DNA of 64,000 nucleotides from Flavobacteriaceae bacterium (GTDB lineage Bacteria; Bacteroidota; Bacteroidia; Flavobacteriales; Flavobacteriaceae). The notes beneath the pieces are model-generated. The model made no database searches. It saw only the letters and a program-made list of their open reading frames with translations, and was not told the origin of the DNA. Shown here in pieces: positions 21,700-26,461 of the stretch. The stretch spans positions 45,492 to 109,491 of the forward strand of contig JAHQVM010000003.1 in the NCBI GenBank assembly GCA_019634365.1, read 5' to 3'. Each line of letters starts with the position of its first letter. Position 1 is the first letter of the stretch. The translations under genes and the position numbers were made by a program.

Positions 21700-23013
21700 T
21701 TACCAAGAAATGGGTTTAATTGCCTCTTGGCGACCATTTACATACCGAAAACCATTTTCACCGTAGAATCCAGCTTCTTCGAGCATGATTCGTATGTCCT
21801 TACTCCATTCTGGAAGGGTTACGGTGGTGTTCAATTCGATAGCATATACGGTATTTTCAAATAAAGGATAGTCGCCCGTACCCGGAACACCTCCTTGAGA
21901 ATCCCACATGCCAATGGTAGGCCCAGCACTATGTCCGTAGGTTCCCAATGGATGGGTATATATCGACGGGCGCATTCCTTCTGCTTTCCCTTCAGACAAT
22001 GACTTTAAAAGGATTTCATTGCCCGACTTGCCCGTTTCGAAATTCCCCGTAAAAATATCCTGAATCCGATTCCCCTTTGCAAAAGCCTCCTTCAAAAAAT
22101 CAGGTACCTCCTGCTCCCCTTCCCGCAAAACATAGGCATGTTGCTGGCAATCTGTATTCAAACCAATGTAAGTGATGCCAAAATCACAATGCAATAAGTC
22201 CCCTGGTAAAATCACTTTGTTCTTTTCACCTTTAGAAAAGGAATAGATGTGACTTTTAAGGGCTTCCTCGCTCCTTTGAACATCGATCGTTGGATGGAAC
22301 CAAGTCTCCAGTCCCATATCGGTAACCTTTTGGCGCAACCACCATACAACATCATCTGTGGTGGTAGTTCCAGGAGTAATTACTTTGTCACTGAAAGCTT
22401 CATCAATGATTCCATGTGTAACTTCTACGAGCGTATTGTACAATTCCATTTCTTGGTCGGTGCGCGTCTCAATCCATCCAACCGCAAGCTTCTCTGCCGA
22501 CACCAATTTATCTTCCCACTGTTGGGGTAAGGCTTCCTTTAATTCTTTGTAATCGGTAACGACCAAACCATCGGCAATTCCGAAGTGTTCGGACATATTA
22601 ATACCAATTTTGTTGGGATTTCGTTCTTCAATAATTTCTACCAAACGAGCCCATTGATCAGGCTGTTTTTCCTTATCCCAAGCAGATACTATATTTTCGC
22701 CCACATCGTAACGGGCCACTGCTAACTTTTCGATAAGTCCTTGGGCCTGGTTCCTATAAAACACCAATATCGTTCTACGACGGGCATTCAACCATTTGGC
22801 TGGTAACATGGTTTTCATCACCGGATCTTCGTTATATTCCCGGGAAATTACCAACCACATATCAATTTCGGTACGATCCATTAACATGGGCAATACTGTA
22901 TTGAAACGATTGGCCAAAAGCTCATCTTTCAGTAGTGACCTATCCCTTTCTGGTAGCATCTGAGCCGTTAACGTTGAAGTGATAAAAGCGGTAAGAAACA
23001 GGAAATATTTCAT
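21700..23013 (-). CDS. M24 family metallopeptidase (Xaa-Pro aminopeptidase-like), exported
   Basis: A 437-residue protein from the ATG at 23013, chosen because MKYFLFLTAFITSTLTAQ is a signal peptide. An N-terminal creatinase-like domain precedes the C-terminal pita-bread domain. Metal ligand motifs are HCDFGITYIGLNTDCQ (two Asp), THPLGTYGHSAGP (His), AIELNTTV (Glu) and MLEEAGFY (Glu). The family removes N-terminal residues next to proline or cleaves related amide bonds. Periplasmic location is unusual compared with cytoplasmic PepP but common in Bacteroidota. Confidence 0.88.
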   Translation of the reverse strand: MKYFLFLTAFITSTLTAQMLPERDRSLLKDELLANRFNTVLPMLMDRTEIDMWLVISREYNEDPVMKTMLPAKWLNARRRTILVFYRNQAQGLIEKLAVARYDVGENIVSAWDKEKQPDQWARLVEIIEERNPNKIGINMSEHFGIADGLVVTDYKELKEALPQQWEDKLVSAEKLAVGWIETRTDQEMELYNTLVEVTHGIIDEAFSDKVITPGTTTTDDVVWWLRQKVTDMGLETWFHPTIDVQRSEEALKSHIYSFSKGEKNKVILPGDLLHCDFGITYIGLNTDCQQHAYVLREGEQEVPDFLKEAFAKGNRIQDIFTGNFETGKSGNEILLKSLSEGKAEGMRPSIYTHPLGTYGHSAGPTIGMWDSQGGVPGTGDYPLFENTVYAIELNTTVTLPEWSKDIRIMLEEAGFYGENGFRYVNGRQEAIKPISW

Positions 23014-23055
23014 GGAGGATAATTTTCCTAAAAATACACATTTCACCATAAAGAA

Positions 23056-23079
23056 AGGGAACCGAACAAACGGTTCCCT
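23056..23079 (-). terminator. Intrinsic terminator of the plug-only gene
   Basis: A 9-bp stem (23056-23064 with 23071-23079) around a 6-nt loop, followed on the minus strand by TTTCTTTAT. It lies 48 bp beyond the stop of the plug-only gene and before the M24 gene. Confidence 0.7.
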
Positions 23080-23126
23080 CAACCCCAATTAAAACTGGCC
23101 GTAACTAGCGCAGTATTATTTTTCTG

Positions 23127-23867
23127 CTACCTACTAGCGTAGGCTCCCGATTTGGTCGTAATAAGGACGACGCCATTCCTACCCAATGAACCGTAGAGAT
23201 TGGTAGCTGCAAGACCTTTCAATATTTTTACGCTTTCTATGTTATTTGGATCAATATCGAAGGATCGATTCGACCCCAAATCACCACAAACTGGGTTGCC
23301 AGGATGTGTTATGGTAGTATCAAACGGCACACCATCCACCACATACAAAGGATGGCTCGATCCATTAATGGTGTTCAACCCTCTAATGGTTACCAAATTA
23401 CTGGAACCTACAAATCCCGATTGGGGTTTCACCATAATTCCCGCTGTGGTTCCTTCGAGCATGCGGGAAAAATCTTTTTGAAGGTTATCGCTTAATTGCG
23501 TTCCACAGAGCGTAGAAACTGCATATCCTTGAGCTTTCTTATCGGAATACCCTCCCGTAAACAAGGCCATAATGGAAGCGTTGTCCCGCTCCATAACCAT
23601 ATTGATGGGACTGTCATCTTCGACAAGTACGGTCATGGTATAATATCCTGCATGACTGAAGGTGATGTGTTTTCCTGTTTCGACGATTAAGGAATATGCG
23701 CCCATTTCATCGGTACGGGTAAGCAATTGTTCGTCTTCTCCGATGATCTTCACGTTGGGAAAAGGCTCATTGTTTTCATCTGTAACGGTTCCTTCAATTT
23801 GAACCTGTTGACTGTAAACGTTAACCATTGAAAGTGCAAAAATTAAGATGGCGGATAGTGTTCTCAT
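23127..23867 (-). CDS. Barrel-less SusC-type protein: carboxypeptidase-regulatory domain plus TonB plug only
   Basis: A 246-residue exported protein from the ATG at 23867 (signal MRTLSAILIFALSMVNVYS). Residues of about 21-95 form a carboxypeptidase D-regulatory-like domain (GTVTDENNEPFPNV). Residues of about 110-240 are a TonB-dependent receptor plug with VTIRGLNTINGSSHPLYVVDGVP and NLYGSLGRNGVVLITTKSG, the SusC family signatures. The protein stops exactly where the 22-strand barrel would begin. The DNA downstream has no barrel and holds a terminator, so it is not a fresh truncation. Its neighbour has the same head fused to a VWA module. Function unknown. Confidence 0.82.
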   Translation of the reverse strand: MRTLSAILIFALSMVNVYSQQVQIEGTVTDENNEPFPNVKIIGEDEQLLTRTDEMGAYSLIVETGKHITFSHAGYYTMTVLVEDDSPINMVMERDNASIMALFTGGYSDKKAQGYAVSTLCGTQLSDNLQKDFSRMLEGTTAGIMVKPQSGFVGSSNLVTIRGLNTINGSSHPLYVVDGVPFDTTITHPGNPVCGDLGSNRSFDIDPNNIESVKILKGLAATNLYGSLGRNGVVLITTKSGAYASR

Positions 23868-23893: not shown

Positions 23894-23961
23894 TGAAACT
23901 ACCCCATGAAAATGTTTTAGGCAATGTAGAATGAGTGAAACGGCATTTTCATTGAGGGAAA
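23894..23961 (-). promoter_or_regulatory. Tandem TGAG-element promoter A (plug-only gene)
   Basis: On the plus strand two elements, AATGAGTGAAA (23930-23940) and ATTGAGGGAAA (23951-23961), start 21 bp apart. The proximal one begins 29 bp from the TA box TAGTTTCA (minus strand, 23901-23894) and 63 bp from the start codon. A TTG lies 20 bp upstream of the TA box. The arrangement repeats at two other places in the next 2.5 kb. Confidence 0.6.
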
Positions 23962-23984
23962 ACGCTATCCATGCATCCATATCT

Positions 23985-24026
23985 AAAATTACTGGGGAAC
24001 CATTGGTTTGGTTCCCCAGTAATTTT
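23985..24026 (-). terminator. Strong intrinsic terminator of the plug-VWA gene
   Basis: A perfect 17-bp stem (23985-24001 with 24010-24026) with an 8-nt loop, its first bases overlapping the plug-VWA stop codon and TTTTAG following on the minus strand. It insulates promoter A from the gene above. Confidence 0.88.
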
Positions 24027-26175
24027 AATAACTTTTCACCAAACGAATGAATTCGGCTTTATAGCCATCTTCATCATTGCCTTTACCGGCTACTGCCAGA
24101 TCGATGACATCTTCTCGATTGAAAGTGTCAATAAAGATTGACTTTCGTAGCTGAAGCCCAAAAAGAGCCACTGCCGCTGAAAATTTGAAATCCTGTGAAG
24201 CCTTTTCAAAGCCTACATCTGAATCATTAAGGGTTTTAACAATAAGCTTGCTCTTGTTACCATCTGGTTCCTTATATCGAAACTTCACCGTAAGCAGCTC
24301 CTTATTATCATCCTTAAGGGAGAATTTTCTGTACTTCAATGCATCTACTTTTCCAACATAAACACTTTCCACACCTACAGGAATGACTTCATACAATGCA
24401 GTAACCGTATGACCGCTACCAATTTCTCCTGCATCTTTGGTATCATCATTAAAATCGCTGTCTTCCAGTAATCTGTTTTCGTATCCAATAAGTCTATGTG
24501 CTTGGACTAAGGTTGGATTGAATTCTACTTGAATCTTAACATCCTTAGCTATGGTATACATGGTTCCAAAAAATTCTGCTCCAAGTACCTTTCTAGCTTC
24601 CTGCATGGTATCTATATATGCATGGTTGCCATTTCCTTTATCGGCTAGGGTTTCCATTTTTGAGTCTTTGTAATTCCCCATTCCGAAACCGAGAACCGTA
24701 AGAAAAACTCCACTTTTACGTTTCTCCTCAATGAGTTCTTCCATAGCCATATCACTGGATGCACCTACATTAAAATCGCCATCGGTAGCTAAGATCACTC
24801 GATTGTTGCCTCCTTTAATGAAGTTTTTTTCAGCAGTTTTATAGGCTAGTTCTATACCTTCGCCTCCTGCCGTGGATCCTCCAGCGCTAAGACTTCTAAT
24901 CGCTTTCATGATGGTCTCTTTATCATCCCCATGGGTAGGCTCCAATACCATTCCCGCGGCACCGGCATATACGACAATGGATACTTTGTCTTTTTCGCGT
25001 AATTGATCAACCAATACCCCAAAAGCAGGTTTTAGTAGCCCTAACTTATTACTTGAATTCATAGATCCAGAGACGTCAATAAGAAATACAAGATTCGAAG
25101 GAGGTGCATCCCCTTTGGGAAGGTCTTTACCCTTTAAACCAATTTTAACCAATTTGGCGTCCTTGTTCCAAGGCGAATTGGCCATTTCGGTATGAATGGA
25201 AAATGGATGCTCATCTTCAGGGTTAGGATAGTCGTATGAGAAATAGTTAATCATTTCCTCAATTTTAACCGCTTCCTGCGGAACCTTTTGTCCATTGTTG
25301 ATCATTCTCCGAATATTGCTATAACCCGCCTTATCAACATCTATAGAAAAGGTGGAAAGTGGACTGGTACTTACATTTTTAAAGGTATTTTCAGGAATGT
25401 ATTTGTAGCTTTCATTGTCCGAAACTGGATTGTGATTCCCGTTCTGAGTTGTGATTAGAATTACTCCATTTATCGCCTTACTCCCATAAAGTCCAGTTGC
25501 TTCCTCTCCTTTAAGAATAGACACATCTTTTATGTTTCCGGGTTTAATATTAAGTGTGTTCTCCATCCAATAACTGTCTTTCTCTGTCTTTTCCATTCCA
25601 GTTTCAGGTCCGACATATGGGACACCGTCTATAACATATAGGACATCGTTGTGCCCAGTAATTGAATTGGTTCCTCTAATAACAACTTTACTACCCGCAC
25701 CAGAATTACCATTCTGGGCACTAATCTGAATGCCGGCTGCCTTACCTTGCATTTTTTTAGATTTAGTTCGCCTTGTTCCATTCCTGCCGATAGATTCTGC
25801 TTGCACTGAACTCACTGCATAACCAAGGGCTCTTTTTTCCTTTTTAATAGCAAATCCCGTAACAACCACCTCTTCCAATAATGCAGGATCTGGTTCCATT
25901 TGGAAGGAAATCTCTTTGGTTTTTGAGTCAATCTTCTTTTCGGCAGTTTTATAGCTGATATAGCTAAAAACCAATGTTTGGCCAACCTCTGCAACAATAC
26001 TATAATTGCCATCGAAATCGGTACGGGTGCCATTGGAGGTTCCTTTAACAATGACATTGACCCCTGGCAATGGCATTTTTGTTTCATCGGTAATAGTTCC
26101 ACTAACCTCTGCTTTTTGAGCTTGTAACAGGCTGTGTGATAGTACGAATGCAAGAAAGAATAGTAATGTTCTCAT
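24025..26175 (-). CDS. Plug-VWA fusion: SusC-type head joined to a YfbK-like von Willebrand A module
   Basis: A 716-residue exported protein from the ATG at 26175 (signal residues 1-19). Residues of about 22-95 are a carboxypeptidase-regulatory domain; EEVVVTG (101-107) is TonB-box-like; residues of about 115-245 are a SusC-type plug (VVIRGTNSITG, LYGSKAINGVILITT). Instead of the barrel come a YfbK-type N-terminal segment (about 273-355), a VWA domain (about 360-535) with an intact MIDAS (DVSGS at 367-371, T435, D465), and a C-terminal YfbK-like region. VWA modules with MIDAS bind proteins through a metal ion. The plug could still touch TonB or an outer-membrane partner. Role unknown. Confidence 0.85.
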   Translation of the reverse strand: MRTLLFFLAFVLSHSLLQAQKAEVSGTITDETKMPLPGVNVIVKGTSNGTRTDFDGNYSIVAEVGQTLVFSYISYKTAEKKIDSKTKEISFQMEPDPALLEEVVVTGFAIKKEKRALGYAVSSVQAESIGRNGTRRTKSKKMQGKAAGIQISAQNGNSGAGSKVVIRGTNSITGHNDVLYVIDGVPYVGPETGMEKTEKDSYWMENTLNIKPGNIKDVSILKGEEATGLYGSKAINGVILITTQNGNHNPVSDNESYKYIPENTFKNVSTSPLSTFSIDVDKAGYSNIRRMINNGQKVPQEAVKIEEMINYFSYDYPNPEDEHPFSIHTEMANSPWNKDAKLVKIGLKGKDLPKGDAPPSNLVFLIDVSGSMNSSNKLGLLKPAFGVLVDQLREKDKVSIVVYAGAAGMVLEPTHGDDKETIMKAIRSLSAGGSTAGGEGIELAYKTAEKNFIKGGNNRVILATDGDFNVGASSDMAMEELIEEKRKSGVFLTVLGFGMGNYKDSKMETLADKGNGNHAYIDTMQEARKVLGAEFFGTMYTIAKDVKIQVEFNPTLVQAHRLIGYENRLLEDSDFNDDTKDAGEIGSGHTVTALYEVIPVGVESVYVGKVDALKYRKFSLKDDNKELLTVKFRYKEPDGNKSKLIVKTLNDSDVGFEKASQDFKFSAAVALFGLQLRKSIFIDTFNREDVIDLAVAGKGNDEDGYKAEFIRLVKSY

Positions 26176-26201: not shown

Positions 26202-26269
26202 TAAAACTAGCAGGGACACTCATCTTAAAAAAAGAACAATGAGGCATCAGGTACTTTGAGTGAGGGAAC
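26202..26269 (-). promoter_or_regulatory. Tandem TGAG-element promoter B (plug-VWA gene)
   Basis: Plus-strand elements AATGAGGCATC (26238) and AGTGAGGGAAC (26259) start 21 bp apart. The proximal one is 29 bp from the TA box TAGTTTTA (minus, 26209-26202) and 63 bp from the start codon, exactly as in promoter A. No TTG is found at the usual -33 spacing. The sequence between TA box and start codon also shares GATTAAAAGT with promoter A. Confidence 0.6.
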
Positions 26270-26302
26270 TCACAATTAGCAATTTAACGTTGTTCAAATA
26301 AG

Positions 26303-26333
26303 AAAAGGGAGCCCAACCAAGCGACTCCCCTTT
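26303..26333 (-). terminator. Intrinsic terminator (menE operon and/or candidate small RNA)
   Basis: On the minus strand AAAGGGGAG pairs with CTCCCTTTT (9 bp including one G-U) around a 13-nt loop, followed by CTTATTT. It ends transcription from menE or from promoter C. Confidence 0.75.
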
Positions 26334-26388
26334 CCCAAAAAAACCAACCAAAAAAACTAAGATGACTTACTTATGTTAATAAATAAAT
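26303..26388 (-). ncRNA. Candidate small RNA between promoter C and a terminator
   Basis: Promoter C (26394-26461) would start a transcript near 26388 that meets the terminator after about 85 nt. The stretch has no ATG on the minus strand, is T-rich (two runs of seven T), and ends in the hairpin. Either this is a small RNA or the promoter is a second, attenuated start for the plug-VWA gene. Prediction from promoter and terminator positions only. Confidence 0.35.
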
Positions 26389-26393
26389 ACACT

Positions 26394-26461
26394 CAAACTT
26401 ACTTTGGATGTCTATAAAATAAAAGTGGGATTGAGGGAAGTACCCACCCCATTGAGGGAAG
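26394..26461 (-). promoter_or_regulatory. Tandem TGAG-element promoter C
   Basis: Two identical copies of ATTGAGGGAAG (26430-26440 and 26451-26461) start 21 bp apart, the proximal one 29 bp from TAAGTTTG (minus, 26401-26394), a full match to TAnnTTTG. It lies directly after the menE stop. No annotated gene begins at the spacing seen at A and B. Confidence 0.6.

Follow-up and report, generated by a model that had tools for sequence, protein, structure and literature searches.

A barrel-free SusC-type plug gene in Flavobacteriaceae shares its promoter with a candidate envelope regulon

What use is a SusC plug without a barrel? SusC transporters are numerous in Bacteroidota, and the window analysed here (the whole 64,000-nucleotide stretch of a Flavobacteriaceae contig) carries a short gene encoding little more than the head of such a transporter, which we call plug-only (Table 1). 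Its neighbours are a plug-VWA gene and an M24 peptidase gene, and no SusD partner gene lies beside it. The original prediction held that the frame stops where a barrel would begin, and this proved correct. Pfam gives a match to CarbopepD_reg_2 (E 5e-10) and a full-length match to Plug (PF07715, profile positions 2-107 of 107, E 1.6e-15), and the stop codon falls no more than eight residues past the ITTK that ends the plug. Because the NCBIfam SusC/RagA model TIGR04056 matches over positions 2-207 of 981 alone, we place the stop at the end of the plug; the score of 177 bits, against 368 required, is about half the family cut-off, and the 22-strand barrel of a SusC/RagA transporter is absent. 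Nor is there room for a barrel 3' of the gene, since the M24 peptidase gene already starts at 23013, 113 nt downstream. A TTG at 23924 is offered as an alternative start, but both the promoter spacing and the orthologues agree with the ATG at 23867. Among the 28 plug domains counted in the same genome, the frames too short for a barrel are plug-only and a contig-end fragment (C80, a frame of 347 aa); plug-VWA has a different domain in that place, and no other such plug gene was seen.

Table 1. Positions of the features discussed. Plain coordinates refer to the window; L numbers denote loci elsewhere in this genome and in relatives.
Feature	Position	Strand	Remarks
Plug-only gene	23127..23867	-	246 aa: signal peptide (by eye), CarbopepD_reg_2, complete Plug, Cys121 and Cys194; no TonB box or barrel
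Terminator-like hairpin after plug-only	23055..23080	-	Intrinsic type, hairpin with T-run; similar one 3' of three syntenic orthologues
-7 box of plug-only, TAGTTTCA	23894..23901	-	Exactly 28 nt past the repeat, 26 nt ahead of the ATG
Direct repeat TTCCCTCAAT-N11-TTCACTCATT	23930..23960	-	Period 21; proposed LytTR-type operator of plug-only
19-pair hairpin	23984..24027		Between plug-VWA and plug-only
Plug-VWA neighbour	24025..26175	-	CarbopepD_reg-Plug-vWF_A-VWA-YfbK_C; TonB box intact
Same direct repeat before plug-VWA	26238..26268	-	-7 box TAGTTTTA at 26202-26209
Putative RNA of about 90 nt	26300..26394	-	Conserved TTTTGGTTGGTTTT and terminator; third repeat as its proposed promoter; approximate ends
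Third direct repeat	26430..26460	-	-7 box TAAGTTTG at 26394-26401; no ORF behind
Syntenic VIT-VWA-plug-TPR-DUF2135 proteins	L037 7281-8939; L086 7874-11254; L087 7381-10698; L088 5589-8969		
Plug-TPR protein without VIT, same syntenic set	L031 6001-7725		
VWA lipoprotein, kinase and LytTR locus	L194 1243-5559 (G000:C60)		Candidate master regulator; equivalents L195-L202

Like SusC/RagA transporters (TIGR04056; PDB 5fq6, BT2261-2264, and 6sli, RagA), the protein has a signal peptide, a CarboxypepD_reg domain (NTE) and a complete plug, but it lacks the barrel and the TonB box and measures 246 rather than about 1000 aa. Its best PDB matches by sequence and fold are SusC proteins, with BT2264 (5fq6) at the top; SusCdex is also represented, through its isolated NTE domain (9hfj). 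The EEVVVTG TonB box, whose absence had been taken to suggest a different contact with TonB, is missing from all six plug-only orthologues, which carry GG[FY] there, and is retained in the SusC, VIT-plug and plug-VWA sequences aligned beside them; contact with TonB appears to be lost. How might such a head hold together? Cys121 and Cys194 are confined to the four long orthologues (0 of 61 other aligned heads; the short forms of G003 and G004 lack the pair), and a disulfide between them could plausibly substitute for the support of a barrel. The AlphaFold model built from 65 heads is moderate (pLDDT 74, pTM 0.49) and counts against assuming barrel-free stability; prediction from six sequences had given the plug a pLDDT of 47.

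Is the gene a relic? A search of 40 relatives, followed by reading of the loci, yielded five orthologues besides the window copy, so that an intact gene is present in six of the nine genus genomes: four are exactly 246 aa and two consist of signal peptide and plug alone. The long forms of G001, G007 and G008 are 57-61% identical to the window copy and share its C-terminus and its place between a menE-like ligase gene and the M24 peptidase gene (in G008 the locus is divided between two contigs). The short forms of G003 and G004, at 185 and 181 aa, lack the CarboxypepD domain, lie at other loci and are 44-50% identical to it. A GG...K..QGYxVxT plug start and an [NS]R stop are common to all six, no internal stop codons were seen, and pN/pS is 0.26-0.36, which is above most neighbours (0.10-0.34, the majority of values being 0.10-0.24) and far below neutrality, with synonymous sites saturated. 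A functionless SusC remnant in the course of loss would account for the restriction to one genus, a pN/pS higher than in the neighbours, the bare plug of the short forms and the two genomes, G005 and G006, in which the locus is present without the gene. We nevertheless regard this reading as strongly disfavoured and barely credible, given six intact frames at these levels of identity despite synonymous saturation, and an end point, promoter and start spacing that are all conserved. Decay is rejected on the strength of the intact orthologues and pN/pS, and the comparison across relatives that the original prediction proposed turned up neither a full-length form with a barrel nor accumulating stops, which upholds its view of a stable, functional form.

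Beyond the genus, no plug-only orthologue was found in 400 family and 396 phylum genomes by a profile search that scored ten candidates per genome, from which weak copies could escape. Being confined to one genus, plug-only is an accessory gene. A contig scan gave one relative only, a plug-TPR protein (L031) at the same syntenic place.

The neighbouring plug-VWA protein and the VIT-VWA-plug-TPR-DUF2135 proteins of Flavobacteriaceae are the closest parallels, being likewise barrel-less, with a SusC-type head and with the promoter and locus of plug-only, whereas they carry VWA, VIT or DUF2135 domains and a TonB box and plug-only has neither. The two adjacent genes had been described as having the same head; the heads are indeed related, at 36% identity over 247 aa, and fall well short of near-identity. 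For plug-VWA itself, the ATG at 26175 matches the promoter spacing better than does the start of the 740-aa ORF. A 19-pair hairpin lies between the genes, which are therefore probably separate transcription units, and the terminator claimed for plug-only is there, with counterparts in relatives. An Rfam match to CRISPR-DR30 at 25092 is below threshold and within coding sequence. In five genomes of the genus we also noted a further barrel-less plug protein (L098 3310-5463, L081-L085), with a VWA-like start recognised by eye, Plug and DUF2135 (717 aa in L098); the direct repeat described below was not seen at the three loci of this family that were read (L160, L161, L163).

Could plug-only be an accessory subunit, forming complexes with plug-VWA or VIT-plug proteins through contacts of the plug or the CarboxypepD domain? 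Adjacency to plug-VWA, the shared promoter and the related heads would suit such a role, as would the situation in G008, where the VIT-plug gene is the neighbour instead. We consider it unlikely: in G003 and G004 plug-only occurs without plug-VWA and away from the locus, and in G001 it remains intact next to a neighbour that has lost most of its plug. That neighbour (L032 9172-11088) is a VWA-YfbK_C protein with CarboxypepD domain and TonB box kept and no Pfam Plug match. The presence of plug-only in G003, G004 and G008, none of which has a YfbK_C-type gene, contradicts an obligate pairing with plug-VWA.

Another question is where the head came from. The original prediction proposed a duplicate of the plug-VWA head, and the trees point elsewhere. 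Plug-only forms a single clade (100/100 in the 72-row and the 31-row tree) that lies next to the G008 head of VIT-VWA-plug-TPR-DUF2135 type (98/95 and 99/98) and falls within the clade of the conserved SusC encoded near rpsL in this genus. Forcing plug-only together with the plug-VWA heads costs 11.8 lnL at a p-AU of 0.142, so that a plug-VWA origin would be the less favoured one on these trees, though not formally rejected. A single clade of the syntenic VIT-type heads is rejected (p-AU 0.0006). Several of these heads fall beside the SusC of the genus they come from, which suggests that VIT-type heads may have been replaced repeatedly through gene conversion or recombination; the G008 VIT head is 77.5% identical in amino acids to the G008 SusC, compared with 58% to its VIT counterpart in G020. 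The G008 VIT protein was assembled from two contig ends (L034, L037), its continuity being inferred from G020 and G267.

The barrel protein closest to plug-only is the conserved near-rpsL SusC, at about 45% identity. It belongs to a highly conserved SusC-SusD pair near rpsL/rpsG in G000, in the order SusC-D-E in G008 (L038-L041), and by gene order only it resembles the abundant SusCDE Fjoh_0403-0405, of function not known (PMC12611786). The Bacteroidota BAM complex has recently been described (PMC12611786, PMC12578637), and the idea that the near-rpsL SusC is a BAM subunit was dropped, as BamG is no SusC according to these papers (PMC12611786). BamP (NF053692), which belongs to the BAM complex of Flavobacterium (PMC12611786), is periplasmic and similar in length to plug-only, and its model reaches the CarboxypepD portion of plug-VWA; against plug-only, NF053692 gave no match at E up to 1.

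The kinship with the near-rpsL SusC raises the prospect of an interchangeable or repair plug, which would enter and seal plugless SusC barrels, above all those of the near-rpsL SusCDE, much as the T9SS Plug does on SprA. Plug-only sits within the SusC clade, retains the SusC-plug block LKGxAATNxYGSxGRNGVV-ITTK and, having no TonB box, would make a seal that TonB could not pull out. A precedent exists in the T9SS translocon of Flavobacterium, in whose SprA-Plug complex a separate Plug polypeptide seals the outer-membrane barrel (PMC10994853); unlike that protein, plug-only has SusC-family chains as its only PDB sequence matches, with the T9SS Plug not among them, and no link to SprA was found. 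The same block is also present in plug-VWA and VIT-plug proteins, which could not sit in a barrel as plugs normally do, and is therefore no proof of barrel contact; both short forms lack the CarboxypepD domain. A repair plug strikes us as rather improbable.

The most informative feature of the locus may lie upstream of the gene. The promoter consists of two half sites in direct repeat (TTCCCTCAnT-N11-TTCCCTCAnT), a gap of exactly 28 nt and a -7-type box, TAgnTTtA. A promoter matching that of the neighbour had been predicted, which understated the case: the window holds three copies of the direct repeat, against 0.08 expected in shuffles. All six plug-only genes, including the two whose loci are unrelated, have the identical layout upstream, as do some 26 further genes, and in all but one of the 33 repeat-bearing promoters examined the distance to the box is exactly 28 nt, or 49 (28 + 21, the best-scoring pair being shifted); the exception is a CarboxypepD413 gene of G001. 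The composite pattern gave 53 matches in 12 genomes, compared with one for the reversed control. Of 201 family genomes, 70 contain it, while the control matched twice. A standard Bacteroidetes promoter is absent, the direct repeat occupying the position of the TTTG -33 box, and a scan for E. coli-type promoters stayed at chance level.

What else does this promoter drive? Behind the matches that were fetched, mostly 15-30 nt past the box, lie genes for plug-VWA, VIT-plug, VWA lipoprotein, squalene-cyclase-like (terpene-cyclase-like) and CarboxypepD proteins, and a DUF4139-plug gene with the promoter was found in G001. The pattern also precedes genes for alpha-2-macroglobulins of about 2000 aa (bMG10, MG2, A2M; L259/L261) in two genera and a TonB gene in one genus (L260 5512-6213, G188). 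The original prediction had not recognised this regulon. In G005 the promoter persists between the menE-like and M24 genes (L092 10599-10665) with the plug genes gone.

The third repeat of the window precedes an element that is possibly a regulated small RNA. The plug locus has it in G000, G007, G008 and G005 (L092, about 10691), where nothing else remains between both flanking genes; in G001 it follows the VWA gene. Rfam has no match for the putative RNA of about 90 nt.

Which protein would read the repeat? LytTR proteins recognise direct repeats spaced by roughly two turns of the DNA helix. In nine genomes (G000-G005, G007, G008 and G020) a VWA lipoprotein gene carrying the motif is divergent from a kinase and LytTR pair near bamA, where two Skp-like genes and one for PorP/SprF are also found. 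The kinase, of about 740 aa, combines a His_kinase domain of LytS type with CarboxypepD_reg and TPRs, and the next gene encodes a response regulator of 243 aa that carries a LytTR domain, the domains having been checked for the pair in G000 and for the kinase in G020. As this pair lies beside a motif-bearing member of the regulon and the repeat has a 21-bp period, it is the likely regulator of the plug-only promoter on grounds of synteny and operator geometry, in genomes that encode 9-40 LytTR domains each. The arrangement resembles that of LytTR response-regulator promoters in that a direct repeat with a period of 21 bp precedes an activator-type promoter and a regulon member has a LytTR gene beside it; the half site TTCCCTCAnT, a putative binding site, was by contrast not found described in the literature searched.

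The kinase also invites the thought of a sensor ligand or decoy, in which the free head and SusC heads awaiting assembly would compete for the periplasmic part of a sensor, the kinase, so that the response is tuned. The CarboxypepD_reg domain N-terminal to the TPRs and the position of plug-only inside the proposed regulon are in line with this, but the kinase match to CarboxypepD is weak (E 9e-5, under the curated cut-off) and both short forms of plug-only lack that domain, and we judge such a role decidedly improbable.

We favour, at a probability of roughly 0.45, the reading that plug-only is a soluble SusC head uncoupled from TonB, made as part of an envelope-maintenance regulon and acting as a binding module in envelope or outer-membrane-protein stress, with the LytTR pair as probable regulator. 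Sharing a promoter with envelope proteins suggests a job in envelope upkeep, not uptake, and from the genes involved and the proximity to bamA we infer envelope or outer-membrane-protein stress as the inducer; no such stress regulon is described for Bacteroidota in the literature searched. Under this reading the gene would derive from a head of SusC type or of VIT-VWA-plug type, and selection would have retained it in the genus. Its own activator-type promoter would transcribe it within a family-wide envelope regulon of VWA, VIT, plug, DUF2135, DUF4139, alpha-2-macroglobulin, TonB and CarboxypepD proteins, which the kinase-LytTR pair near bamA probably controls. During stress the free module would engage the periplasmic partners of SusC heads, be they assembly factors, an empty barrel or further regulon members with such a head, and its binding would escape TonB pulling. 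Of all this, the computation itself establishes the domain anatomy, the conservation, the loss of the TonB box, the identity of the promoter and membership of the regulon. As to the partner, sequence would accommodate a plug for an empty barrel, a companion of VWA- or VIT-plug proteins and a decoy or feedback ligand without separating them; the soluble decoy, assembly partner and interchangeable plug of the original prediction are likewise conjectures. A bolder version, which we hold as doubtful, would give plug-only, as a soluble plug, the dedicated task of dealing with SusC barrels that are unassembled or unplugged, within an undescribed outer-membrane stress response of Flavobacteriaceae that is governed by the CarboxypepD-TPR kinase and LytTR regulator near bamA and whose output comprises free or VWA-, VIT- or A2M-linked SusC heads, TonB and a short RNA.

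A stand-alone SusC plug, VWA-plug proteins and this operator were not found described in the literature, which is weak evidence given that most subscription journals lay outside the coverage. Plug-only offers a natural plug, free of barrel and TonB, for studying plugs alone, and indicates that SusC heads serve as modules outside transporters. The regulon may be a weightier discovery than the protein. Its promoter signature can be scanned for in any flavobacterial genome, and a candidate regulator near bamA is at hand.
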